A DNA stretch of 64,000 nt. Source: an uncultured Spartobacteria bacterium (GTDB lineage: Bacteria; Verrucomicrobiota; Verrucomicrobiia; Chthoniobacterales; Chthoniobacteraceae). The position numbers and the translations under genes are program-made. The notes beneath the pieces were generated by a model, which saw only the letters and a list, made by a program, of their open reading frames with translations, was not told the origin of the DNA and made no database searches. Shown one piece after another: positions 31,076 to 42,129 of the stretch (position 1 is the stretch's first letter; every line of letters starts with the position of its first letter). The stretch is taken from contig CAIXGS010000061.1 of assembly GCA_903919125.1 (NCBI GenBank), positions 1 to 64,000 on the forward strand, read 5' to 3'.

Positions 31076-31774
31076 ATGAAAAAGTTCCTCCTCATCGCGT
31101 TGCTTGTGCCCATCACAGCGCTTTTCTTCTCTTCTTGCGCCGCCATCACCGCAAAGGTGGCCACCAAGGAGAATATCGACAAATTGCCTGAGCCTTTGAA
31201 AAGTCAGGTGCAGGAACTTGTCCGCCAGCAAAAGACGATGGAAGTGAGATATACCAGTGGGACAAGAAAAATGCTCGAGGCTTACTTCGTCATAGCAGAC
31301 GCAATCGGTCTGAAAAAAGAAGCCATGTTGTTCAAAGCACAGGCGGATTCCTTGAATGCTGGCTCCTCCTTGAGTCAGGCGAGAAAAGCTGTGGACCAAA
31401 CTGCCGATGCGAGAAAAGCAGTCAGATCCAAGATCGGTGCCTCCGATGCGAAGGCTGAGTTCAGCAAGGAAAAATTTGTCTCCGGCGTGCGTGTGAAAAA
31501 CGAGGCTTACATGATCGAGTACCAGATCGGCATAGACGCGGGATTACAAGCGGTGAAAGGCATTTCCGCCATGAGGAGCGCTTCCCCACTGGAAAAGGTG
31601 ATGCTGACTGCAACTCTCGACCCTCTGTTTTTCTTTGCCCGCGACATTCCAAAGTTCCAAGCGCAAGAACGCGAGTTTGATGAAAACTGCAAAAAATTCG
31701 CCCAAGTGAAGGGAATTTCTTTGCCACCAGCGAATCTTCCCACGCCGAAGCCGAGCAGTCTTCCCGCTTTCTAA
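31076..31774 (+). CDS. Envelope locus: helical lipoprotein of unknown function
   Basis: ATG at 31076 gives a clear lipoprotein signal peptide with lipobox FSSC (Cys21). The mature part is mainly helical and charged, with a long amphipathic stretch across residues 35-140 and a Pro-rich tail. I know no family for it. A strong terminator follows. It is separated from the next, larger + strand operon by 110 bases but is likely related to it because it shares export and lower GC. Confidence 0.75.
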   Translation: MKKFLLIALLVPITALFFSSCAAITAKVATKENIDKLPEPLKSQVQELVRQQKTMEVRYTSGTRKMLEAYFVIADAIGLKKEAMLFKAQADSLNAGSSLSQARKAVDQTADARKAVRSKIGASDAKAEFSKEKFVSGVRVKNEAYMIEYQIGIDAGLQAVKGISAMRSASPLEKVMLTATLDPLFFFARDIPKFQAQEREFDENCKKFAQVKGISLPPANLPTPKPSSLPAF

Positions 31775-31786
31775 TCGCTTAATCGC

Positions 31787-31820
31787 AGACCCCGTTCGTT
31801 CCAAAATGCGAACGGGGTCT
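31787..31820 (+). terminator. Rho-independent terminator
   Basis: A 12-bp perfect stem (AGACCCCGTTCG with CGAACGGGGTCT) closes a 10-base loop, with CGTCTTT after it, 13 bases after the lipoprotein stop. Confidence 0.88.
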
Positions 31821-31884
31821 CGTCTTTAACGCTCGAAGGCGTGTCCAGAGCCTTCCTCCTCATTGTAACCCCCAAGCATGGCTC

Positions 31885-33186
31885 ATGTTATTTAAACGAT
31901 CGATTGGCCTTCTCTCGGTTGCGCTAACCATGATTTTCTGGGGTTCGCTAACAACGAGCCTGCCGGCAGCGAAAGCTGACAAATCAAAAGAGGCGTCTAA
32001 GGCGGCCAGTGTTGAGCCTGAACCGACACCACCGTTAGACCCTATCAAATATGGAGGGGTTTGGCTAAGCGGCAGTCTAGCCGATGCAGACAAAAATTTT
32101 CCAGTTGGCAAAGCTTTCACCCAGCGGCGTCTTGAAGGGCAGGGAGGCAGTGACGACTTGGCCGGAGAACTCCTTCAGGCGCTTCGCAAGGCGGCGAAAC
32201 CAGGCGGAAGACGTCTGGTGGACGCCTTGGCCCCTAACGATTATGCTCCAGAGGCGAAGGCCGGTAAGGCGCTGGTTATGGCCTGTGCCATCAACTACGA
32301 GCAGGTGGACGCCTTAAGAATCGGAGGCGTAACCAAAGTGATGGCCGAGGTGGGGTTTGACCTAGTGATCTGTGATTTCAGCACGCGCGCTGTGGTGGTT
32401 GCACTCCCAGGAAGAGTGATGCTGGTTGATGTCGATCCGGCCAATAATCCATCCCCGCAGAAAAAAAAGCTGCTTCTCCAACGTCTTTATCACGAAAGTG
32501 TTTTGAAGCAATTTGTCAAACTTGCTCAAGACCGCGGTCCCGAAATCATGGGCCTTAGCGCTGCGGGCGTCACGAAGGTTACCGTTTTTGACGAGGCGAA
32601 GAAAGTCCTCCCAGATTGGATGAAGGAGAAAACGGAAAACTATTTCGCCAACGTGGCAGGAAGTAACTTCTACGAGGGTTCTGGACTGCCTCTCTTGCCG
32701 TTTTCTCGGGGCAACGAATTGGTCTTCTGTTCAATGCAGGAGAAACTTTCAGATGCTTCCGAAGCGGCGATTAAATCTAATGAATCCGGCGGGGGAGAGC
32801 ATTTTACCCTCAAAAAGCCTGAGTACGAAGTGGAGCTCGTGATCCCCGCATTCCGCACTGTCACAGCCACGTCAACGGATGCAGGCAAAGTAGTGCAGAA
32901 CTGCGCTTATTCCAGAATCACAATCAAGAGGGGAGAGCAGGTCCTCTACACCTCCCAGCACGATGCCAACGTGCAAAACATTGTCCCGCGCGGCTCATCC
33001 GAAGCGGTGCCTTGGTTGGCTTACTCGGACGCTCTGAACGACTTATTTTTTAAGGGGGCCAAACAAATCAAGACAAAGATCTCGGGGGCTCGCAAGAAGC
33101 AAGACAACCCTAGCTTAATCATTGAGCCAGACAGTCTTAAAAATATGTTCCTCGACTGCGCACCGTGGTCGATCGTCGGCAAATAA
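31885..33186 (+). CDS. Envelope locus: exported protein, possibly CsgG/TolB-like
   Basis: ATG at 31885 begins a protein with a long hydrophobic leader (about residues 8-25) and a charged Lys/Ala/Pro linker. The body contains an alternating strand-helix pattern with VMACAINYEQV, AEVGFDLVICDFSTRAVVVALPG, reminiscent of the central fold shared by CsgG, LpoB and TolB N-terminal domains. This is likeness of pattern only. The last third is rich in beta strands. It starts a tight + strand series; the following gene begins 16 bases after its stop. Confidence 0.65.
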   Translation: MLFKRSIGLLSVALTMIFWGSLTTSLPAAKADKSKEASKAASVEPEPTPPLDPIKYGGVWLSGSLADADKNFPVGKAFTQRRLEGQGGSDDLAGELLQALRKAAKPGGRRLVDALAPNDYAPEAKAGKALVMACAINYEQVDALRIGGVTKVMAEVGFDLVICDFSTRAVVVALPGRVMLVDVDPANNPSPQKKKLLLQRLYHESVLKQFVKLAQDRGPEIMGLSAAGVTKVTVFDEAKKVLPDWMKEKTENYFANVAGSNFYEGSGLPLLPFSRGNELVFCSMQEKLSDASEAAIKSNESGGGEHFTLKKPEYEVELVIPAFRTVTATSTDAGKVVQNCAYSRITIKRGEQVLYTSQHDANVQNIVPRGSSEAVPWLAYSDALNDLFFKGAKQIKTKISGARKKQDNPSLIIEPDSLKNMFLDCAPWSIVGK

Positions 33187-33202
33187 TCTCATACCGCTCC
33201 CT

Positions 33203-34315
33203 ATGAAACTGTTACCTATTCTCACCGCACTTTTTGTAAGTACCGTTTCCCTTATCGCCGACACCGCACGGATTAGTGGCCGAGGTGAAGCGCCCTATAC
33301 AAACCCCATTGGCAAGCCCGGGAAGGAAGTGGAAGCCGCCGCCAGAAAAGAAGCTATCTACAACGCTGTCGATCGAGCTCTAGAAGGCCAGTCGGACGCA
33401 CTCCGCGAGCAGTTCAAGAAGTTCGGCAAAACATTGACGGCGGAAGAGTATGAGGCAAAGGGAATTGTGACGGAGTCACGCAAGGCTACCGCGATTCCTG
33501 ATCCCAAAGCCCGCAAGGTGACCGTCTTGTTCGAAGGAACGCTCGATATGCAGGCGCTTCGGGACAAGATGAATGCAACTTCCGCCACGGAAGGCAGCAC
33601 TGATGTAAAACTGTCGAAAGCGGCCGCCATGGTGTTCTTCACCGTTCGCGAAACGACAGAAAATTTTGTTCATGACGATAAAATCGTTAGGGCCACCAAG
33701 CGACTAGACACCGTCGAGGGGGAGAAAAATTTGGCGGTTTCAGAGAGCGATGATTCTGTATCTGTAAAAGGAGATGCTTCTCGGCTTCGCGAAACAAAGG
33801 TGTCTGTTGAGTCGGGCGTCGCCAAAAGAACGGATAAACAGAAATTTGCTTTAGATACCCCCAATAAGAAAGCCTTCGGATCAGGATTAAAGGACGTATT
33901 TACCGCCAAAGGATTTGAAGAGATAGGCGATGGTGCGACTTTGGAGTGTTCGGTGGACGTAGATGAAGCGTTTGGTTCCTCTGGCGAGCTTCCACCAAAG
34001 GTATTGAAAAAGATTGCTAAGGAGGTCAGAGAGGAAATGCCTGAAGCAAAATATGTGATCATCGGCACCGTGGATTTCTCAATGCCGACCCTCGATAAGG
34101 TTACCGGTCAGCACCAATATGTCGGTACGATTACTGGGGATGTTTACAAACTGCCAGAAGCGGGGTTGCTGAAGGTAGTTGCCGCCCTCGCTCCCACCCA
34201 GGTCTCGATGTCCGCCGACACTCAACAAGACGCGAAGAAAAGAGTTATACGAAAACTCTCAAATGAGGCAGCCAACGACATCATTACAAAACTACGTAAT
34301 AAGTCAGGTATATAA
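33203..34315 (+). CDS. Envelope locus: exported FlgT/LPP20-like protein
   Basis: ATG at 33203 gives a signal peptide ending near LIADT. An N-terminal module (about residues 20-120) has the helix AARKEAIYNAVDRALEG followed by a beta strand KVTVLFEGTLD, the layout of the LPP20/FlgT N-domain. The second half (about 140-360) has FVHDDKIVRATKR..., AKYVIIGTVDF and QYVGTITGDVYKL, like the TolB-type middle domain of FlgT. FlgT forms an outer-membrane/periplasmic ring around flagella in vibrios, but no flagellar genes are here. Confidence 0.6.
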   Translation: MKLLPILTALFVSTVSLIADTARISGRGEAPYTNPIGKPGKEVEAAARKEAIYNAVDRALEGQSDALREQFKKFGKTLTAEEYEAKGIVTESRKATAIPDPKARKVTVLFEGTLDMQALRDKMNATSATEGSTDVKLSKAAAMVFFTVRETTENFVHDDKIVRATKRLDTVEGEKNLAVSESDDSVSVKGDASRLRETKVSVESGVAKRTDKQKFALDTPNKKAFGSGLKDVFTAKGFEEIGDGATLECSVDVDEAFGSSGELPPKVLKKIAKEVREEMPEAKYVIIGTVDFSMPTLDKVTGQHQYVGTITGDVYKLPEAGLLKVVAALAPTQVSMSADTQQDAKKRVIRKLSNEAANDIITKLRNKSGI

Positions 34316-34361
34316 ATTTAACTTCAGCAGTATAAATAGTCCCCAAAATCAATAGCCTAAC

Positions 34362-35123
34362 ATGAAAAACAAAAAAATTATCACTAGATTAGCCGCTACT
34401 TGCGCTGGAATTATGATCGCCACCGCACTCCAAGCGGATGCCCAGCAGGATAATGGGGCGTTCAACGCGGGAGTCAAAGCGGCCCAGCAGGATGCACAGT
34501 TTGTGCAGGGCGTACAGGCCAATGCTGACGAGGAAACTTTAAACCAACTCCTATCGAATGGTAATGGCGTGGCGAATCCTAAATACGACGACGCAGGCGC
34601 ACTGAAATCAGCCCACATCGTAGTAAAGGTTCCACTGACAAAATCATTGCCGCCTGCGTTTGCCAAAAATGCAGCTAGAAAACTGGCTGGCATCAACTCA
34701 AAAGCAGAATTCGTCAAGTTCCTCAAAACTAATTGTAAGACTGAAGAGCGCGGTGGCGAAATGGTAGCCATTGCAGTGGGGGGGCAAGACGACGGCACTA
34801 CGGGACAGGGCGGAGGCGCAGCTCAGGCAAAACAGGATGTCGGGACTATGACCGAAAACACAGCTCAGGGGCTAGCAATAGGCATCATTAGCATCAAGGA
34901 GGCGATTACCGCAGATGAGTATGTAGGAATTTTTGGCTGGAGCAAAAAGTTGGCGAAGGGTGCGCAGTCGGCAGAACAAACGCAAAATCAAGGAAGCCCT
35001 GCTCCGAGTAGTTCGGCTGCTCAAAGTAATTCCGCGCCGCAAGGTAGTGCGCCACGTCCGACCGGAGTTTTTCAAGGCGTTGCTCCTGTAAAGCCATCAG
35101 CTAAAGGAATTAATGATTTCTAG
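34362..35123 (+). CDS. Envelope locus: exported protein with low-complexity tail
   Basis: The signal peptide runs to about ALQADA. Residues 30-150 hold KYDDAGALKSAHIVVKV, FAKNAARKLAGINSKAEFVKF and GEMVAIAVGG, again a helix between strands as in LPP20-type modules, though divergent. The C-terminal 100 residues are rich in Gln, Gly, Ser and Pro, resembling a flexible linker. The next gene overlaps its end by 11 bases. Family not recognised. Confidence 0.65.
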   Translation: MKNKKIITRLAATCAGIMIATALQADAQQDNGAFNAGVKAAQQDAQFVQGVQANADEETLNQLLSNGNGVANPKYDDAGALKSAHIVVKVPLTKSLPPAFAKNAARKLAGINSKAEFVKFLKTNCKTEERGGEMVAIAVGGQDDGTTGQGGGAAQAKQDVGTMTENTAQGLAIGIISIKEAITADEYVGIFGWSKKLAKGAQSAEQTQNQGSPAPSSSAAQSNSAPQGSAPRPTGVFQGVAPVKPSAKGINDF

Positions 35124-35967
35124 ACGCACTTCGATGCGCCTGTTTACAGTCGCGATGTTCCTCTTCTATCGCTCCGTAGCAGTTTGCAAAGATCCCGCAA
35201 ATACAGTGAGCTTGGGCAATCCCAAGATTCCATCCACATTAGTGTTTTCGGAGACGCCTCTTGAAAAAGTGGTGTACGACGCGGGTCCGCATCAGACACT
35301 CACAGGCATCGTCTCCGTGGCGGTCGGGCAGATGTCTCGTCCAGAAGTTGCACGAACTGCTGGACGAGCGATCTCCAAAAAGATGTTTATCAGCGGCCTT
35401 AGAAATATTTACGGGGTCGATAGAGGAAATGAGTTAGTCCTCGAAGGGCTTTCGGTTGGAAAGGAGTCCTACGGAGAAGGGCTTTACGTAGGGATCTACA
35501 CAATTCCGTTAGGCGGTGTTAAACTTGTGAAGCCTGTGACACACTCTCCGCTGGAGGCGGATAGAGTTGGCGGGAATCAGAGCACCAGTCCAGGAAACGG
35601 GACGAGAGACGTTTTGAACAGTCCGGCCGGCCTTGTTAAGAAGCCGTCTTGGGTAGTTGACCCTAAAGTACTTGAGTTCACGAATCTTCAGTCAAGTTCG
35701 GTAGTCTTGCTGCGTGCTGAAGAGAAACTTCAGCACGAATTTGAGTGCTGTTCTCTCGCTGTTGAAAGTGTCTTCGCTCTCATGCAATCCGAAACGGGAG
35801 TCACTTATGAAACCGCTGCCGTCGATTTAAAAAAGCTCACCGAAAGTTTTAAGGCCAAAATTGCCGGGGAACTGCTTTTCAGCAGGGACGAGAAGGCGGC
35901 TTTTTCAAAGCGAATCGATGCTTTGGCTGATTCTGGATATCAAAAGATAGTTGAATTAATAAAGTAA
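35113..35967 (+). CDS. Envelope locus: exported protein of unknown function
   Basis: ATG at 35113 overlaps the end of the preceding gene and starts a signal peptide (residues 1-25, ending near VAVCK). The middle contains TGIVSVAVGQMSRPEVARTAGRAISKKMF and GEGLYVGIYTIPLGGVK, the same strand-helix-strand rhythm seen in its neighbours. The C-terminal third is helical and charged. I assign no function. Coupled translation with the gene before it points to a shared complex. Confidence 0.65.
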   Translation: MISRRTSMRLFTVAMFLFYRSVAVCKDPANTVSLGNPKIPSTLVFSETPLEKVVYDAGPHQTLTGIVSVAVGQMSRPEVARTAGRAISKKMFISGLRNIYGVDRGNELVLEGLSVGKESYGEGLYVGIYTIPLGGVKLVKPVTHSPLEADRVGGNQSTSPGNGTRDVLNSPAGLVKKPSWVVDPKVLEFTNLQSSSVVLLRAEEKLQHEFECCSLAVESVFALMQSETGVTYETAAVDLKKLTESFKAKIAGELLFSRDEKAAFSKRIDALADSGYQKIVELIK

Positions 35968-35975
35968 TATAACAC

Positions 35976-37262
35976 ATGCGCAAAAAGCTTATATTTGCAT
36001 ATGCCTTCTCCACAATTCTGGCTTTTTATGCGCATGCGGATGGTGATGCGGACAGATTATTTGCCAAAAACTCGCATCTTCGAAACGCGGAGGGGGCCGT
36101 AATCGAACGAAGGGCGGACGGGACCTCTTTAATTTTGGGGGTAGGAATGTCCACCATCGAAAGCTCTGAGGCAAAGGCGGTCACTGACGCAACAATGAGC
36201 GCACGGTTGAGAATTGCCGAGTTGGTCAGGGGGGCGAATGTGAAAACCGAGCAGAAGATGCAGGAAGAGGCAGGCGTAAAAATACATGCGGGAAACGAAA
36301 GCGCACATTTCTCACAGTCTTTTAAAGAGGCTACGTCCCTTTCCATTGCTGGCAGAGTTAGGAATGCATCAACTGTGGACACGTGGAAGAGCTCCGATGG
36401 ACAAACAATCTTTGTCGCGCTCCTCCAACGCAATGAGACGGTTTACCTGCCTGAAACGACTGGCATCCGAGTGGACCTTGGACGCGGGGTAGAATGGATG
36501 GATTTTATCGCCCCCGAGCTTCGCAGTTCTCGAAGCGAATTCCCGAATGGAGAGCGGCGCAAAAAGGAGATGCTAGATGAGATTGCGGTCGAAATCCGTG
36601 ATTCAGTGCTCTCCACACTCGCTAAACAGAAGCGTTACGTCCTGACCACAGAGAAGGACAGCGCCTCGATGATTACGGAGATTAAAACCGAGGCGTTCAA
36701 GGCCAAAGTCGAGGGTTCTCCGTCGAGTGGGAAACGGTCCGTGCAAATCACGATTTCCGGGATGATCCGTTTGTACACGGAGTCTACCGGGCAGGAGTTT
36801 TTCCGGACTACATTCAGTGCCGGAACCTCTAAAGTCCCATTTGCGAAAGCGGACGACTTCGAAGCTGCGCTAGAGAGTGCACGTGGCGAGATCCTAGTAA
36901 AATTACGGACCTCATTACGGTTCGCAAAGTGCACCCTAATGAGCAAGCTGGGGGTGACGAAGCTCGTTTTTAGCGAGTACGGAAGTTGGATGCTGGGAGA
37001 GGGAGTCGATGCGGGGCTGCTGAGCGAGGGCGATCGCGTCAGCCTATGGAAGGGCGACGGTGAAGATGCCGTCAAAGTGGCTGAATGCACCTTGGTAGCG
37101 CAAAATAACTCCCTCACCCTCTCCAACATTACCCCAAACGGTGGAGATATTTTTCTCTTTAAGATGGAAGCTTGTGCGGAGCCTCCGCCGCCGCCGAAGC
37201 CCATCCAAGAAGAACCTGCGGCCCCAAGCAAAAAGCCTTCAAAGAAAAAGTCGGTAAACTGA
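35976..37262 (+). CDS. Envelope locus: exported FlgT/LPP20-like protein
   Basis: The signal peptide ends near YAHAD. Residues 45-160 (GTSLILGVGMSTIESSEAKAVTDATMSARLRIAELVRG, broken by a charged stretch, then SDGQTIFVALLQRNE) closely follow the LPP20/FlgT N-terminal pattern. A middle TolB-like part and a C-terminal small beta domain (LGVTKLVFSEYGSWMLGEG, LSEGDRVSLWKGD) follow, then a Pro/Lys-rich tail. The - strand protein at 40603-42129 has the same layout, so the two are paralogues. It begins eight bases after the preceding stop. Confidence 0.68.
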   Translation: MRKKLIFAYAFSTILAFYAHADGDADRLFAKNSHLRNAEGAVIERRADGTSLILGVGMSTIESSEAKAVTDATMSARLRIAELVRGANVKTEQKMQEEAGVKIHAGNESAHFSQSFKEATSLSIAGRVRNASTVDTWKSSDGQTIFVALLQRNETVYLPETTGIRVDLGRGVEWMDFIAPELRSSRSEFPNGERRKKEMLDEIAVEIRDSVLSTLAKQKRYVLTTEKDSASMITEIKTEAFKAKVEGSPSSGKRSVQITISGMIRLYTESTGQEFFRTTFSAGTSKVPFAKADDFEAALESARGEILVKLRTSLRFAKCTLMSKLGVTKLVFSEYGSWMLGEGVDAGLLSEGDRVSLWKGDGEDAVKVAECTLVAQNNSLTLSNITPNGGDIFLFKMEACAEPPPPPKPIQEEPAAPSKKPSKKKSVN

Positions 37263-37270
37263 ACTGATTT

Positions 37271-37681
37271 ATGAACAACCTAACCTTTCTGACGACAACC
37301 TTAGCGGTGAGCCTCTTTACAGGATGCGCGTCGCAACGCGTCTCAGATTCCAACTACCCTACAAACTCGGGAGCGCTCATCTACGAAAAAACGGCTCCGC
37401 GCTCAAATATGGCAGTGCCTCAGGAAAGCGCGCCCAGAAACGCTGTCGGCGTCTGGACGGGCTCTAATGGAGAAGAGCGCATCACTCTCAAGTTCGGTGT
37501 CAACGGGAGTTTGATTTTAACTAATGCAGCCGGTGCTGAATCTGGCAGATGGAGTGGATCGCGCAATTCATACCGGATTTCGGTGGGTGAATTCTCAGGG
37601 GAATTCGTCCTTCTCGATGGCTCCACCGCCTCCTTCACGCTCGGTGGTTCGCACATCGAAATGCGGCGCACCGGCGGCTAA
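37271..37681 (+). CDS. Envelope locus: small lipoprotein
   Basis: A lipoprotein signal peptide with lipobox LFTGC (Cys19) starts this 136-residue protein. The mature part has a Ser/Pro-rich linker and a compact beta-rich domain (VGVWTGSNGEERITLKFG ... FVLLDGSTASFTLGG) of a lipocalin-like or DUF-type small barrel. It starts eight bases after the preceding gene, so it belongs to the same operon. Confidence 0.78.
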   Translation: MNNLTFLTTTLAVSLFTGCASQRVSDSNYPTNSGALIYEKTAPRSNMAVPQESAPRNAVGVWTGSNGEERITLKFGVNGSLILTNAAGAESGRWSGSRNSYRISVGEFSGEFVLLDGSTASFTLGGSHIEMRRTGG

Positions 37682-37741
37682 AGGCGTTGCGACTGCTATT
37701 CGTTGAATACCTCCTTTATAGCAATTACGGCCTAAATCGCG

Positions 37742-38266
37742 TTGAACATCAGCATCGCCATCCTAATCCTGGTCCTAGGCGTGGTCCAATGTTTCGCAGG
37801 ATACAGACTACTACGCTTCGTTTTATCCGTTACTGGGTTTGGGATAGGCGCGGCAGCCGGCGCTGGAGCGGCGCAGCTTCTCTCACAGAACCCACTCGTT
37901 ATTGGCGCGGTCGGTCTCCTCTTCGGAGCGGCCTTCTTATGGTTAGTCACACGTCTTTATATGGCGGGAGTATTCATGCTTGGCGCACTGGCGGGAACGG
38001 CATTGTCGGCCTTTCTACTGCAAATGTTTGGAAGGCCTCCTTTTTCTGCGGTCTTAATCCTGTTTGCGCTGGCATGGGGAGTCTTGGCTGTCGTCTTGCA
38101 AAGATGGGCGGTGATTCTAGCGACAGTTGCCGTGGGTGCAGCAGGTTGCGTAATTTCTGTCCATTACCTCCAACACGGTGTGTTCGAATGGCAGAATCTG
38201 TCCTGGCAAGAGGAACTGGGAGGTGTCGCTCTGTGCCTTCTCGGGGCAAGGAGGCAACTAACCTGA
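37742..38266 (+). CDS. Envelope locus: DUF4203-like membrane protein
   Basis: The 174-residue protein has about seven short hydrophobic helices rich in Gly/Ala (GAAAGAGAAQLLSQNPLVIG and similar), like DUF4203/TM7S3-type membrane proteins. The start is TTG at 37742; no ATG fits. The C-terminus is short and charged. It may anchor or help insert the surrounding exported proteins, but no direct evidence for this exists. Confidence 0.6.
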   Translation: MNISIAILILVLGVVQCFAGYRLLRFVLSVTGFGIGAAAGAGAAQLLSQNPLVIGAVGLLFGAAFLWLVTRLYMAGVFMLGALAGTALSAFLLQMFGRPPFSAVLILFALAWGVLAVVLQRWAVILATVAVGAAGCVISVHYLQHGVFEWQNLSWQEELGGVALCLLGARRQLT

Positions 38267-38288
38267 CGAAATAACCAACTTGAGATTT

Positions 38289-38687
38289 ATGAAAAAAAAC
38301 CTGATTTCAACCGTCCTTCCATTGCTCGCTTTGGCTTTGTGTAGCTGCGCAACTACAAAATCCAAAACCACACAAGCCAGTATACAATATCGGTCACCCG
38401 AACCGTCCTTTCAACCGTTAGATCAGGACACCAGAGAACCAGAATCTTTGTACGGAAAGTTTATCGTGACTGCGACGAACGGAAACACTGTTGTTCTCAG
38501 GCAGATGAGCCCCGACCAGGATCGTTCCACCGCTCGGATCATTGTAGAGTACCCGACGGGATTGTTGATTCCGCAGCAAGGCACTCTAATTGAGCGTCAA
38601 AAAGGGAAAGGCTTTGAGGTCCGCAACGTAGCAAAATCTCAAGACGGACAAACGAACGTCTATGTTCGGGATTTGATCGCTCGGTAA
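38289..38687 (+). CDS. Envelope locus: small lipoprotein
   Basis: ATG at 38289 (a TTG nine bases earlier is unlikely) gives a lipoprotein signal with two cysteines in LCSCA; Cys20 is the probable lipid site. The body is a beta-rich domain of about 90 residues, with IVTATNGNTVVLRQMSPD and a following basic segment. Family unknown. It is the last + strand gene of the locus. Confidence 0.75.
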   Translation: MKKNLISTVLPLLALALCSCATTKSKTTQASIQYRSPEPSFQPLDQDTREPESLYGKFIVTATNGNTVVLRQMSPDQDRSTARIIVEYPTGLLIPQQGTLIERQKGKGFEVRNVAKSQDGQTNVYVRDLIAR

Positions 38688-38794
38688 TGATTAGTCGGCT
38701 CCATTGTTCCGCAAAGAAATTGAGCTAGCAACGGTTGCCCGTTTCTACCGTAAATACGCGTGCTCCGGCGGTAACCTGCTTCTTCTAAAAGTTT

Positions 38795-39670
38795 TTAGTT
38801 CCGTTTGGGACGAATCAGATCTACTGGGACCAATGTTTCCTTACTCACTCGAATCTTAACTCTGCTCGAGACATAGTTGCGTGCAGAGATCACAATTTCA
38901 TGTACGCCTGCGGGAACCAGAATCTTATCAGAACAAGTTCCTTCAAGCACACCATCAATCTCTACAGATGCGTCGGGGACATTGCAGTCAAACCTGATAA
39001 TAAACTGATCCAATCCCGCGCCATTCATTCTTGAACTGGGAGTGGGAGAAGACTCTTGCGTCTGAAACTCTTTTTGCTGCGCCAACTGATCTCTCCGAAT
39101 ATCCTTGAGGAGAGCCGTCAACATCGGCGCGGATACAGACTTAGACACATCCTTGGAGAGGTTCGTAAAAACCCCTGCACTAAACCCAGGAGACGTATCA
39201 ATGTTAACCTGAGGGGCCGAAGAGGTTTCCAGAATTTTAGCAAAGACAATCGCCTTACTGTAAACGTTAAGCACTTTTAAACTCACTCTGAGATTAAAAG
39301 TAGTTTTAAAAGACGTGACGCCGTAACCCGAGAATCTAACACTGTCGACATCCGCATTTAGCACGTCTCCAAAGACGACATATTGACAAGCCATTTCATG
39401 GGCTAGTACTTCCACAACCTTTTCATCCGCCAACGCTGAAATACCCCCTCTTTCATCGATCGCCTTAACGACCGCACCGGCTTTCATAACCTCGAACTTA
39501 TCGGAAACAGCAAGCGCTTGGGTAAGCACCGAAGTAAAAGCATTCGCTACGACAGTCTGGTTTCGCGTGGTTCCACAAAAACCAAAAACCGCCACAACAG
39601 GAGAATCAGCCCGAACCGACGAGAATGCCGAGAGCAGCAACAGGAGAAAACTGATGTTGATGTATTTCAA
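38795..39670 (-). CDS. Envelope locus: CsgG-like exported protein with C-terminal PEGA domain
   Basis: Start appears to be TTG at 39670, giving a signal peptide (KYINISFLLLLLSAFSSVRA). Residues 25-190 match the CsgG/LpoB/TolB pattern: SPVVAVFGF, helix with FTSVLTQALAVSDKFEVM, then CQYVVFGDVLN and LRVSLKVLNV. The last 80 residues are a PEGA domain (VPDASVEIDGVLEGTCSDK, VPAGVHEIVISARNY), a fold often found at the cell surface. The protein pairs a secretion-channel-like module with a cell-surface PEGA domain. Confidence 0.7.
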   Translation of the reverse strand: MKYINISFLLLLLSAFSSVRADSPVVAVFGFCGTTRNQTVVANAFTSVLTQALAVSDKFEVMKAGAVVKAIDERGGISALADEKVVEVLAHEMACQYVVFGDVLNADVDSVRFSGYGVTSFKTTFNLRVSLKVLNVYSKAIVFAKILETSSAPQVNIDTSPGFSAGVFTNLSKDVSKSVSAPMLTALLKDIRRDQLAQQKEFQTQESSPTPSSRMNGAGLDQFIIRFDCNVPDASVEIDGVLEGTCSDKILVPAGVHEIVISARNYVSSRVKIRVSKETLVPVDLIRPKRN

Positions 39671-39729
39671 AACGTTCCGTTTCTAAAGCGTTTTGAAACG
39701 CTAACTGCAAAATCTGGACTAATTTTGTC

Positions 39730-40401
39730 CTACCGAGCAGGCTTCGGATATCGATCTGGGTAAGTTTTGGCCACTTTTATAGCGAGCGTGTGCGCTAAGT
39801 TTTCGGCTCCTCCCATACCTTCACCGAAACCAGACTGGAGAATAGAAAGTGGGCTGTCGCCGCCTCCTGACTTTGCTTCACCAACCCAAAGCACATCAGT
39901 TGTGCTGACGTCAATTAAACGTGCGCTTATTGCAGCTGAGGAGATCACCAGATTGCTGGGCCCGTTGGAGTAAGCAAAGGTTTCACCCTTCTTGTTCTGG
40001 GAATACCCGCTGCTCGCAGCGACATAGTGATTCTTATCCTCTACGTTGTTAACCGCAACTAATACAAACCCAGGAACGTTAAGTATTTTACCTATCTTCG
40101 CTGCCTGTTGCGCGGAATCCGTAAGACCTGAGTTCTGAAACTGGATTTCTTTTATGACTCTCTGCACATCCGAACGAGAGACCACGGAGTAACCCTTTCT
40201 AATAAGTTCCATCGTGAACTCATCTTCCATTCTTCGCAAAACACCTTGGTTTACGCCATCCTGCTCCGCATTTGCCATCACCGCTATTCTCGAGTACTTT
40301 TCTGGACTGAAATTGGGGCTGACGGCTGAACGCGGCGTCGCACAAGAGGAAAATCCGAGGGCGACAGACGCTAAAAGGACGAATTTATTTGAGAGTTTCA
40401 T
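39730..40401 (-). CDS. Envelope locus: LpoB/CsgG-family lipoprotein
   Basis: ATG at 40401 begins a lipoprotein signal with lipobox GFSSC (Cys20). The body follows the LpoB/CsgG fold: RIAVMANAEQDGVNQG, FTMELIRKGYSVVSRSDVQRV, VPGFVLVAVNNVEDK, SAAISARLIDVSTTDVLWVGE. LpoB activates penicillin-binding protein 1B in enterobacteria, whereas CsgG forms the curli export pore; which of these applies here cannot be told from sequence. It lies 59 bases before the CsgG-PEGA gene on the same strand. Confidence 0.78.
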   Translation of the reverse strand: MKLSNKFVLLASVALGFSSCATPRSAVSPNFSPEKYSRIAVMANAEQDGVNQGVLRRMEDEFTMELIRKGYSVVSRSDVQRVIKEIQFQNSGLTDSAQQAAKIGKILNVPGFVLVAVNNVEDKNHYVAASSGYSQNKKGETFAYSNGPSNLVISSAAISARLIDVSTTDVLWVGEAKSGGGDSPLSILQSGFGEGMGGAENLAHTLAIKVAKTYPDRYPKPAR

Positions 40402-40602
40402 TTTAGAGGGGGGTGGGACGAGAGCAGTCAGAAACACCAAAGGATTACATAATAGGCAACAAACAAACAATGATTAATTGTAAAAGTGCAACAGACTCCG
40501 CGAAGGAAAAACACTGAACTAATTACCCGGAAATCCTCAGAGATCGTGAGTCGTGAAGAAACATTGAGCTAAGAAGCAAGTTTTCTTAAGATTTTTAACT
40601 GC

Positions 40603-42129
40603 TTAAAACGGCTGGCGACCCGGCACTCGACCATTTTGAACCGGAACCGCAATGGGATCGTCAAGATGTCTGATAATAGAATAGCTCGTCTTTATTTCCA
40701 CCTTGGAAAGATCCCCCTCCCCTTCAACTTCAAATAGCTCAAGCAAAGTACTGTCCTCACCAACCTGTTTAACACGAGCCCTACCAACTGGATAAGACGC
40801 GTCAGTTCCGAATTTGGAATCAGAAGGTTCGCAAACCTCAACAATCATTCCAACAGACATTCCAGAGGCGCGCCCCCTGTCCACATGAAAAAAACGACCC
40901 CTCGAGTCGGTAATTTTGGGCGGACACGTAACATCGAGAATCCGCATCCCTAATTTTTTACTAACACCGCCAGCAAGCGATTTTAATGTTCCGGAGTCGA
41001 AACTCAACGCACCTTTAGGAGATGATCTTCGGTCACTTTGAGGAACAAGCTTCGTGATCGTTTCTTCCATGTCCTCCTTCAAGACACGCTTTGTTCCGTT
41101 GATCCGGTCGATAATCTGTAGGGATATCGTGACCCGCAACAACCAGCGAGTAGCGCTTCCAGAAACACCAGCCATCTTGCTAGTGATTGATGCATCCAAA
41201 TCCTCGAGCTTGGCAGTTGCGACAAAATGAGCTTCTTCCACCGTGTGGTCAGCGCCCGCGGCTTCACTTTGACCGCGCCCATAATTCTCAGAAACAAGCC
41301 ACTCTTGTTGAAGTTTTTTTAGATCTTCTCCCCGCACAGCAAGCGTCAAACGCTTGGAACTTGCAGAAGACAGTTCCTGAGTTAAAGTATTTAACAAAAG
41401 TCCTTTAAGAATTCCTTCAGTGTCCTGCTGTGAAGCTTGGAACCTCGACGCGATCTCAGGAGTCACCAAGCCAGACGCGATCTCAAAAGCCGATACGGCC
41501 ATAACTTTCACCTCCTTTGGCTCACTTGGTCCGCTTTGAATTTTTTTTCCCAAAGCAACAAACAACATCGAACCGTCGGGCGAATTCCATCCCCCGACTG
41601 TTTCGAGACGATTGACGTTGCGTGAAACCTCAGACTGAACCGAAGTGTCCAACCTGCTATCCACGGAACCCTCTTCGTTTTTGTTTTTTACCCGTATTTG
41701 AACGTTTTCGCTGGTGCTCTCCCTCACCCGCACCATCACAGTACCGAGAGCCTCAACAACCGCCCTACGAGCATCAATCTTCGCTCTTTCCAACTGTAGT
41801 TCTCTCTGTTTCCCACTGTTTCCATCTACGTCAGTCTTCCCAATACCAACAACCCAAACGGACTCATCAGATAACCTTATCAGTTTACCGCCACCAATAT
41901 TCATTAGGGGACGAATAAACTCAAAAATCGGCAGAAACTCAGGGACGACCTTCTCTCTCAAATCGCTAGCTGTCCCGTTAAGAAGTCGGCTTTCTAGCTC
42001 TGTCCCGCTTAGAGAGGGTTGACTGGAAAATCCTTCGGAGACCAACAAGTGGGACACTAAACAAGACACAAAAAAGTGAGTGCTTAAAACCAATCTGACG
42101 GGGTATTTAAGGAGGGATTGAAAATTCAT
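40603..42129 (-). CDS. Envelope locus: FlgT/LPP20-like large exported protein
   Basis: A 508-residue exported protein. Residues 85-200 are an LPP20/FlgT-N module (SVWVVGIGKTDVDGN, RAKIDARRAVVEALGTVMVRV, SPDGSMLFVALGKK), a TolB-like middle region follows, and a C-terminal domain (about 395-480) has FHVDRGRASGMSVGMIVEV and PVGRARVKQVGEDSTLLEL as in FlgT C-domains. It is a paralogue of the + strand gene at 35976-37262. It is the first gene of the - strand trio and may carry its own promoter in the unannotated 260 bases upstream. Confidence 0.72.
   Translation of the reverse strand: MNFQSLLKYPVRLVLSTHFFVSCLVSHLLVSEGFSSQPSLSGTELESRLLNGTASDLREKVVPEFLPIFEFIRPLMNIGGGKLIRLSDESVWVVGIGKTDVDGNSGKQRELQLERAKIDARRAVVEALGTVMVRVRESTSENVQIRVKNKNEEGSVDSRLDTSVQSEVSRNVNRLETVGGWNSPDGSMLFVALGKKIQSGPSEPKEVKVMAVSAFEIASGLVTPEIASRFQASQQDTEGILKGLLLNTLTQELSSASSKRLTLAVRGEDLKKLQQEWLVSENYGRGQSEAAGADHTVEEAHFVATAKLEDLDASITSKMAGVSGSATRWLLRVTISLQIIDRINGTKRVLKEDMEETITKLVPQSDRRSSPKGALSFDSGTLKSLAGGVSKKLGMRILDVTCPPKITDSRGRFFHVDRGRASGMSVGMIVEVCEPSDSKFGTDASYPVGRARVKQVGEDSTLLELFEVEGEGDLSKVEIKTSYSIIRHLDDPIAVPVQNGRVPGRQPF

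Follow-up and report, generated by a model that had tools for sequence, protein, structure and literature searches.

An 11-kb locus for exported proteins, lying at positions 31076 to 42129 of a 64,000-nt stretch of DNA from an uncultured Spartobacteria bacterium (contig CAIXGS010000061.1; the whole stretch is called the window below), raises the question of which of its twelve genes, labelled g01 to g12, belong together and in what kind of envelope structure their products act. Nine reading frames lie on the + strand (31076-38687) and three convergent ones on the - strand (38795-42129), all of them at or very near the coordinates proposed in a first-pass annotation of the sequence. The proposal made there that all twelve products form one complex was rejected, as only g01, g02, g03, g06 and g07 are kept together in other genomes. 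These genes form a cassette in which one subunit, g06, is made of known modules, namely those of FlgT, CsgG and TsaP.

A conserved core in two phyla

A survey of gene neighbourhoods, as recommended in the first-pass annotation, revealed conservation for g01-g02-g03-g06, partly with g07, and not for the other genes. When 197 genomes of the order Chthoniobacterales were searched with g03, five carriers were obtained, including the window's own genome. The gene order in the other four is g01-g02-g03-g06-g07, with 37-63% identity for g01 to g03, and g07 is located 3′ of g06 in each of them. The genes g04 and g05 are missing in these close relatives, where g03 adjoins g06, and were not found in the other cassettes either; no counterparts of g08 to g12 were detected in the syntenic loci of relatives. 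Using profiles, we identified g01-g02-g03-g06 in two genomes of another family (G275 and G289) and the order g02-g03-g01-g06 in three more (G350, G536 and G666). In the case of G500, a PEGA gene and a CsgG/FlgT_C gene come after g02-g03-g01; a PEGA-like gene is also present within the cassette of locus L022. The lipoprotein gene g07 was not detected in the distant cassettes. Syntenic relatives of g01 are present in loci L006-L009, L020-L024 and L040. The core is formed by g01, g02, g03 and g06, usually accompanied by g07, and g04, g05 and g08 to g12 are local additions.

The distribution of the cassette across genomes is sparse: g02 was found in 6 of 388 genomes of the phylum, g03 in 10 of 384 genomes of the class, and the cassette in 5 of the 76 genomes of the genus to which G275 belongs. 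By reading, the G275 cassette lies near an integrase gene and a Fic gene. The flanking genes, also assigned by reading, vary from locus to locus (an RND transporter gene in L006, an Mfd-like gene in L008, a Tgt-like gene in L009 and others in the window), and the cassette is therefore a self-contained unit.

A tblastn search of a plasmid collection with g02 led to the 2.6-Mb replicon of Cupriavidus metallidurans CH34. Profiles built from verrucomicrobial members only (database size Z=20000) recovered g02-g03-g01-g06 in this order at NC_007974.2:2457093-2461430, with E-values of 1.5e-59 for g02, 1.8e-69 for g03, 2.8e-23 for g01 and 2.5e-35 for g06. As this recovery is far above chance, it identifies the four genes as the core. 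In Caballeronia sp. SBC2, searched with the same profiles, all four are present as well, with g06 located upstream and followed by g02-g03-g01 (g01 profile match, 2e-9). The core is co-conserved in two phyla. A hit in Polaromonas (H9) was set aside, being a short C-terminal match in a region where the other cassette genes were not recognised. A phage origin was rejected on the lack of any match of the Cupriavidus g03 protein in 50,697 phage records, and a role in anti-phage defence on the lack of any PADLOC match for the 10 proteins scanned.

A relative of g06 (E 4e-29 against Cupriavidus g06) is also encoded on Azospirillum plasmid p1 (L064, 4080-9083), where it is clustered with genes for a TPR-like protein, YcfL (DUF1425), LpoB and a DUF6844 protein. 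The LpoB of this cluster is a true LpoB (1.8e-39), and a profile search did not find g01, g02 or g03 there. A DUF6844 gene also precedes g02 in G350. FlgT-type genes thus seem to be shared by two or more kinds of envelope cluster.

Short acidic-aromatic C-terminal tails (KFD, NDF, LDF, DDF and DDNW) were noticed in g04, which ends at window position 35123, and in the g06 relatives of L008, L022, L023 and L040. They might represent a shared sorting or docking signal.

Domain architecture of g06 and its partners

The first-pass annotation had assigned several of the twelve proteins to the FlgT and CsgG families. This kinship is clear for g06, follows for the N-terminus of g12 from its homology to g06, and is weak for g10 and g11. 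Likewise, of the several LPP20/FlgT-N modules suggested, only those at the N-termini of g06 and g12 were supported, and the LPP20 family (PF02169) gave no match in any of the 12 proteins.

A nine-member g06 profile was compared with 177,635 PDB sequences, and up to E = 10 it matched only TsaP (4.6e-6 and 3.8e-5, in the C-terminal part), CsgG (0.0012, in the middle) and FlgT (0.0038 and 0.013, in the middle to C-terminal part). With an earlier g06 profile CsgG ranked first (0.01), and FlgP lipoproteins followed lower in the list through the N-terminal part (E 0.3). The Pfam FlgT models remained below cut-off on g06 and none of the window proteins reaches the Pfam CsgG cut-off, which is exceeded by the g06 relatives of G350 (9.3e-9) and Cupriavidus (3e-10). 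Profile-profile alignment with hhalign of the g06 family and FlgT_N-bearing proteins from the window's genome and from G061, in which Pfam FlgT_N scores 4e-5 and 0.002, gave a probability of 97% (E 5.9e-11). An AlphaFold model of g06 had a mean predicted local distance difference test score (pLDDT) of 43.7, the best part being residues 232-400. In a Foldseek search with this model the top two matches were FlgT (PDB 3w1e, 2.8e-4, with a long alignment) and FlgT in the LPHT ring (3.3e-4), followed by CsgG chains, apart from one low-probability ribosomal row. The predicted domain order FlgT_N-FlgT_M-FlgT_C of g06 is well supported by sequence and loosely by the model.

An SHS2 fold is common to FlgP, Lpp20 and FlgT, and ring formation, in FlgP and FlgT, is reported to accompany an insert between the helix and the second strand of this fold (PMC12222027). 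The g06 model contains a strand at 51-56, a helix at 68-84 and strands at 132-138 and 144-150, with 47 residues inserted between the helix and the second strand, in a region with a pLDDT of ~25-32. As a clue to ring formation the modelled insert is suggestive only. The modelled strand-helix-insert-strand-strand succession may resemble that of the LPP20/FlgP SHS2 family, known from the Campylobacter basal disk, and FlgP was among the few profile matches; however, this likeness alone is not significant, and a flagellar context is lacking.

The g02 sequence had no match in the PDB. Residues 55-222 of its model (mean pLDDT 41.2) were most similar to LptE-type lipoproteins in a VIA comparison (Z 9.1 to 8.2), with CsgG, PqiC, FlgT and PelC scoring lower, and g02 thus appears to hold an LptE/CsgG-type fold. 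No known family was found for g01 and g03, and no meaningful PDB match for g03. An LPP20/FlgT_N domain at the N-terminus of g03 was not demonstrated, as hhalign against the FlgT_N proteins gave a probability of only 10%, and a hint of LptE for the Cupriavidus g03 protein was not significant (0.063).

A proposed ring or scaffold at the outer membrane and its alternatives

FlgT and CsgG form ring-shaped assemblies according to solved structures, and TsaP acts in one together with the PilQ secretin. The likeness of g06 to these three families, all of which take part in ring-shaped assemblies of the outer membrane, makes a ring or scaffold the most parsimonious interpretation, and we consider it an even chance that the cassette encodes an outer-membrane-tethered periplasmic ring or scaffold of FlgT/CsgG-type modules. 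The cassette, whose widest form is g02-g03-g01-g06 and which is present here as g01-g02-g03-g06-g07, would then specify a complex in which g06 is a ring-type subunit built like FlgT, with an SHS2-type N-terminal domain carrying an insert, a CsgG-like domain and a FlgT_C-like domain. The lipoproteins g01 and g07 would anchor the complex to the outer membrane, probably on its inner face, while g02, with its putative LptE/CsgG-type fold, and g03 would contribute additional structural components. Such a complex might work around another envelope structure or alone, rather than as a dedicated flagellar part. The observations themselves comprise the co-conservation in two phyla, the export signals read in the sequences, the domain homology of g06 and the occurrence in genomes without a flagellum; the outer-membrane location, complex formation and ring formation are inferred.

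Several observations speak against a ring or scaffold. The two models are of low confidence (pLDDT 43.7 for g06 and 41.2 for g02), and for the middle domain of the g06 model VIA ranked LptE (Z 7.0) above CsgG (5.3) and FlgT (5.1), none of them outstanding. Not all outer-membrane lipoproteins with this fold form rings; LptE, for one, is not known to do so. No mutual sequence relation was detected between g02, g03 and g06, and a common origin of the three was dropped as a candidate at the sequence level. Finally, 6 of the 11 carriers, including all close ones, are flagellated, and the cassette may serve the flagellum in some hosts.

Proteins of the FlgT type are known from the flagellum. In flagellated hosts the cassette could be an accessory of the flagellum, namely an H-ring or a basal-disk-like collar around the LP ring. 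Like FlgT of the Vibrio H/T ring (PDB 3w1e, 8z5n), g06 shows the three-domain order, FlgT was its best Foldseek match and is one of the three families hit by its profile. The first-pass annotation had stated that flagellar and curli genes are missing, which is correct for the locus but, as regards the flagellum, not for the genome: contigs C28 and C52 of the latter carry flagellar clusters, in which genes for rod, hook, FlgH/FlgI-like and export proteins can be read. Rod genes, detected as Flg_bb_rod, are present in all five Chthoniobacterales carriers and in G666, but the remaining five of the 11 carriers (G275, G289, G350, G536 and G500, the last with a partial cassette) do not have them in spite of a completeness of 97-100%, which strongly weakens this interpretation. 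Conversely, many flagellated relatives, several of them in the same family, do not have the cassette, and no flagellar genes were found beside it in the loci read, with neither flgO nor flgP nearby; moreover, g01 to g03 have no known flagellar counterpart. The rod-less carriers and the flagellated relatives without the cassette indicate that it is not a dedicated flagellar part; this candidate was rejected on the carriers without a flagellum, and we regard an accessory role at the flagellum as improbable.

The best PDB sequence matches of the g06 family, obtained through its FlgT_C-like domain, are to TsaP (4.6e-6), which stabilises PilQ (PMC10653833), and g06 might correspondingly form a collar around a secretin pore of a type IV pilus or a type II secretion system. 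Secretins were found in all carriers tested, but the correlation is uninformative, as all 21 genomes examined had them, whether or not they carried the cassette. In contrast to TsaP, no LysM domain was found in g06 by Pfam, the FlgT_N and CsgG-like domains taking its place, and no gene for pili or secretion could be recognised beside the cassette. A TsaP-like collar is unlikely, although it deserves somewhat more attention than the flagellar role. A secretion pore of the CsgG kind, assisted by accessory lipoproteins and exporting an unknown substrate, would account for the middle domain of g06, for the CsgG domain that passes the Pfam cut-off in g06 relatives and for the CsgG/LptE-type folds in the g06 and g02 models. 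However, the window proteins all score under that cut-off, the flanking FlgT_N and FlgT_C domains are foreign to CsgG, and no curli partners were recognised in the loci, with the genome-wide search covering the CsgG family only; we give such a pore a small chance. Still less probable in our view is a complex of the LpoB type that would regulate peptidoglycan synthases through the outer membrane. It is suggested by the Azospirillum cluster, which shares with the cassette a g06 relative and DUF6844, the latter also flanking the verrucomicrobial cassette of G350; but the Azospirillum cluster contains a true LpoB and YcfL and not g01, g02 and g03, no true LpoB is encoded in the window, and the link is one of neighbourhood only.

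Returning to a ring or scaffold at the outer membrane, the occurrence of a FlgT-architecture protein alongside three uncharacterised proteins, in two phyla and even in hosts without a flagellum, suggests an outer-membrane ring-building kit that is broader than the flagellum. More tentatively, and with less confidence than the ring or scaffold itself, we propose that the cassette might encode a ring machine of the outer membrane that has not been described before and does not depend on flagella, pili or curli, the Vibrio FlgT ring being one specialised offshoot of a wider kit of modules, and that its sparse occurrence in Verrucomicrobiota and Burkholderiaceae would probably reflect horizontal transfer. 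In the part of the literature covered, no relevant paper was found that links FlgT with Verrucomicrobiota or TsaP with FlgT, and none for DUF6844, "FlgT-like" or "FlgT homolog". The cassette provides a defined set of four genes, and C. metallidurans CH34, a laboratory strain that has been studied in depth, is one carrier in which their role can be addressed directly.

Layout of the locus and local genes

The features of the locus are listed in Table 1. Near-universal export, as claimed in the first-pass annotation, agrees with the export signals read in almost all proteins and with lipoprotein-type signal peptides in four of them, with the motifs FFSSC (g01), LFTGC (g07), LCSC (g09) and FSSC (g11). 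The single membrane protein announced there is g08 (Pfam TM7S3_TM198), the only one of the 12 proteins with a Pfam match above cut-off; NCBIfam, applied to 10 of the proteins, gave none. The spacing of 8 to 60 bases with overlaps is correct in part, g04 and g05 overlapping by 11 bases, and does not apply to g01-g02 (110 bases) and g11-g12 (201 bases). The low G+C content was reproduced: at 0.499 the locus is the lowest among 11-kb stretches of the window (left 0.575, right 0.540), and a recount of positions 39301-39360 again gave 26 G+C. A scan for promoters and terminators yielded no more sites than shuffled sequences. The locus is flanked by housekeeping-type genes, on the left for PHP and pterin-binding enzymes and on the right for an ABC-F-type ATPase, an APH-type kinase and a nucleotidyl transferase.

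Table 1. Genes of the locus at 31076-42129, with their place in the cassette and predicted products
Gene	Position	Strand	Description
g01	31076-31774	+	core; lipoprotein, lipobox FSSC, 232 aa; no Pfam match above cut-off
g02	31885-33186	+	core and signature gene; exported, 433 aa; apparent LptE/CsgG-type fold at ~55-222 of the model
g03	33203-34315	+	core; exported, 370 aa; no known family
g04	34362-35123	+	local insertion between g03 and g06; exported, Gln/Ala/Ser-rich; no Pfam match
g05	35113-35967	+	local insertion; exported; no Pfam match
g06	35976-37262	+	core; FlgT architecture: FlgT_N-like ~50-150, CsgG/FlgT_M-like ~160-325, FlgT_C/TsaP-like ~326-400
g07	37271-37681	+	usually present; small lipoprotein (FTGC)
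g08	37742-38266	+	local; TM7S3/TM198-like membrane protein (PF13886, 1.9e-9); TTG start
g09	38289-38687	+	local; small lipoprotein (LCSC); no Pfam family
g10	38795-39670	-	local; exported; CsgG/FlgT_M-like domain and C-terminal PEGA domain, both sub-cut-off
g11	39730-40401	-	local; CsgG-like lipoprotein (FSSC); ATG at 40401; CsgG 0.0011, just under cut-off
g12	40603-42129	-	local; g06-type N-terminal module fused to a ~300-aa part found separately elsewhere

Two of the - strand genes had been described as CsgG/LpoB-like. The CsgG half of this description found weak, sub-cut-off support in g10 (0.015) and g11 (0.0011), and the LpoB half none, with a sub-cut-off score of 0.021 for g10 and no match for g11. 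The other Pfam scores of g10 were likewise below cut-off (PEGA 8e-4, FlgT_M 0.002), and its match to the g06 profile was 7.7e-5. The suspected likeness of g06 and g12 was confirmed for an N-terminal module common to both (BLASTP 4e-7), which was also matched in a genome search (3.8e-5). Relatives of residues 198-491 of g12 are shorter separate proteins in other genomes, and g12 relatives occur in genomes where the cassette was not found.

Further FlgT_N proteins (~4e-5) are encoded elsewhere in the window's genome, on contigs C70 (L057, 583-3009) and C32 (L058, 1432-2670). One of these two genes has as its neighbour a gene similar to the DUF4384/CsgG-like one in another locus of this genome, L041 (contig C75, 148-5252), forming a recurring pair outside the cassette. 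In L041 a gene for a reverse transcriptase with an SQ-type motif (744-1745) follows a small HRDC-like gene and lies close to the genes for an LPP20 protein (7.6e-6) and the DUF4384/CsgG-like protein; by reading, this locus is likely a diversity-generating retroelement.

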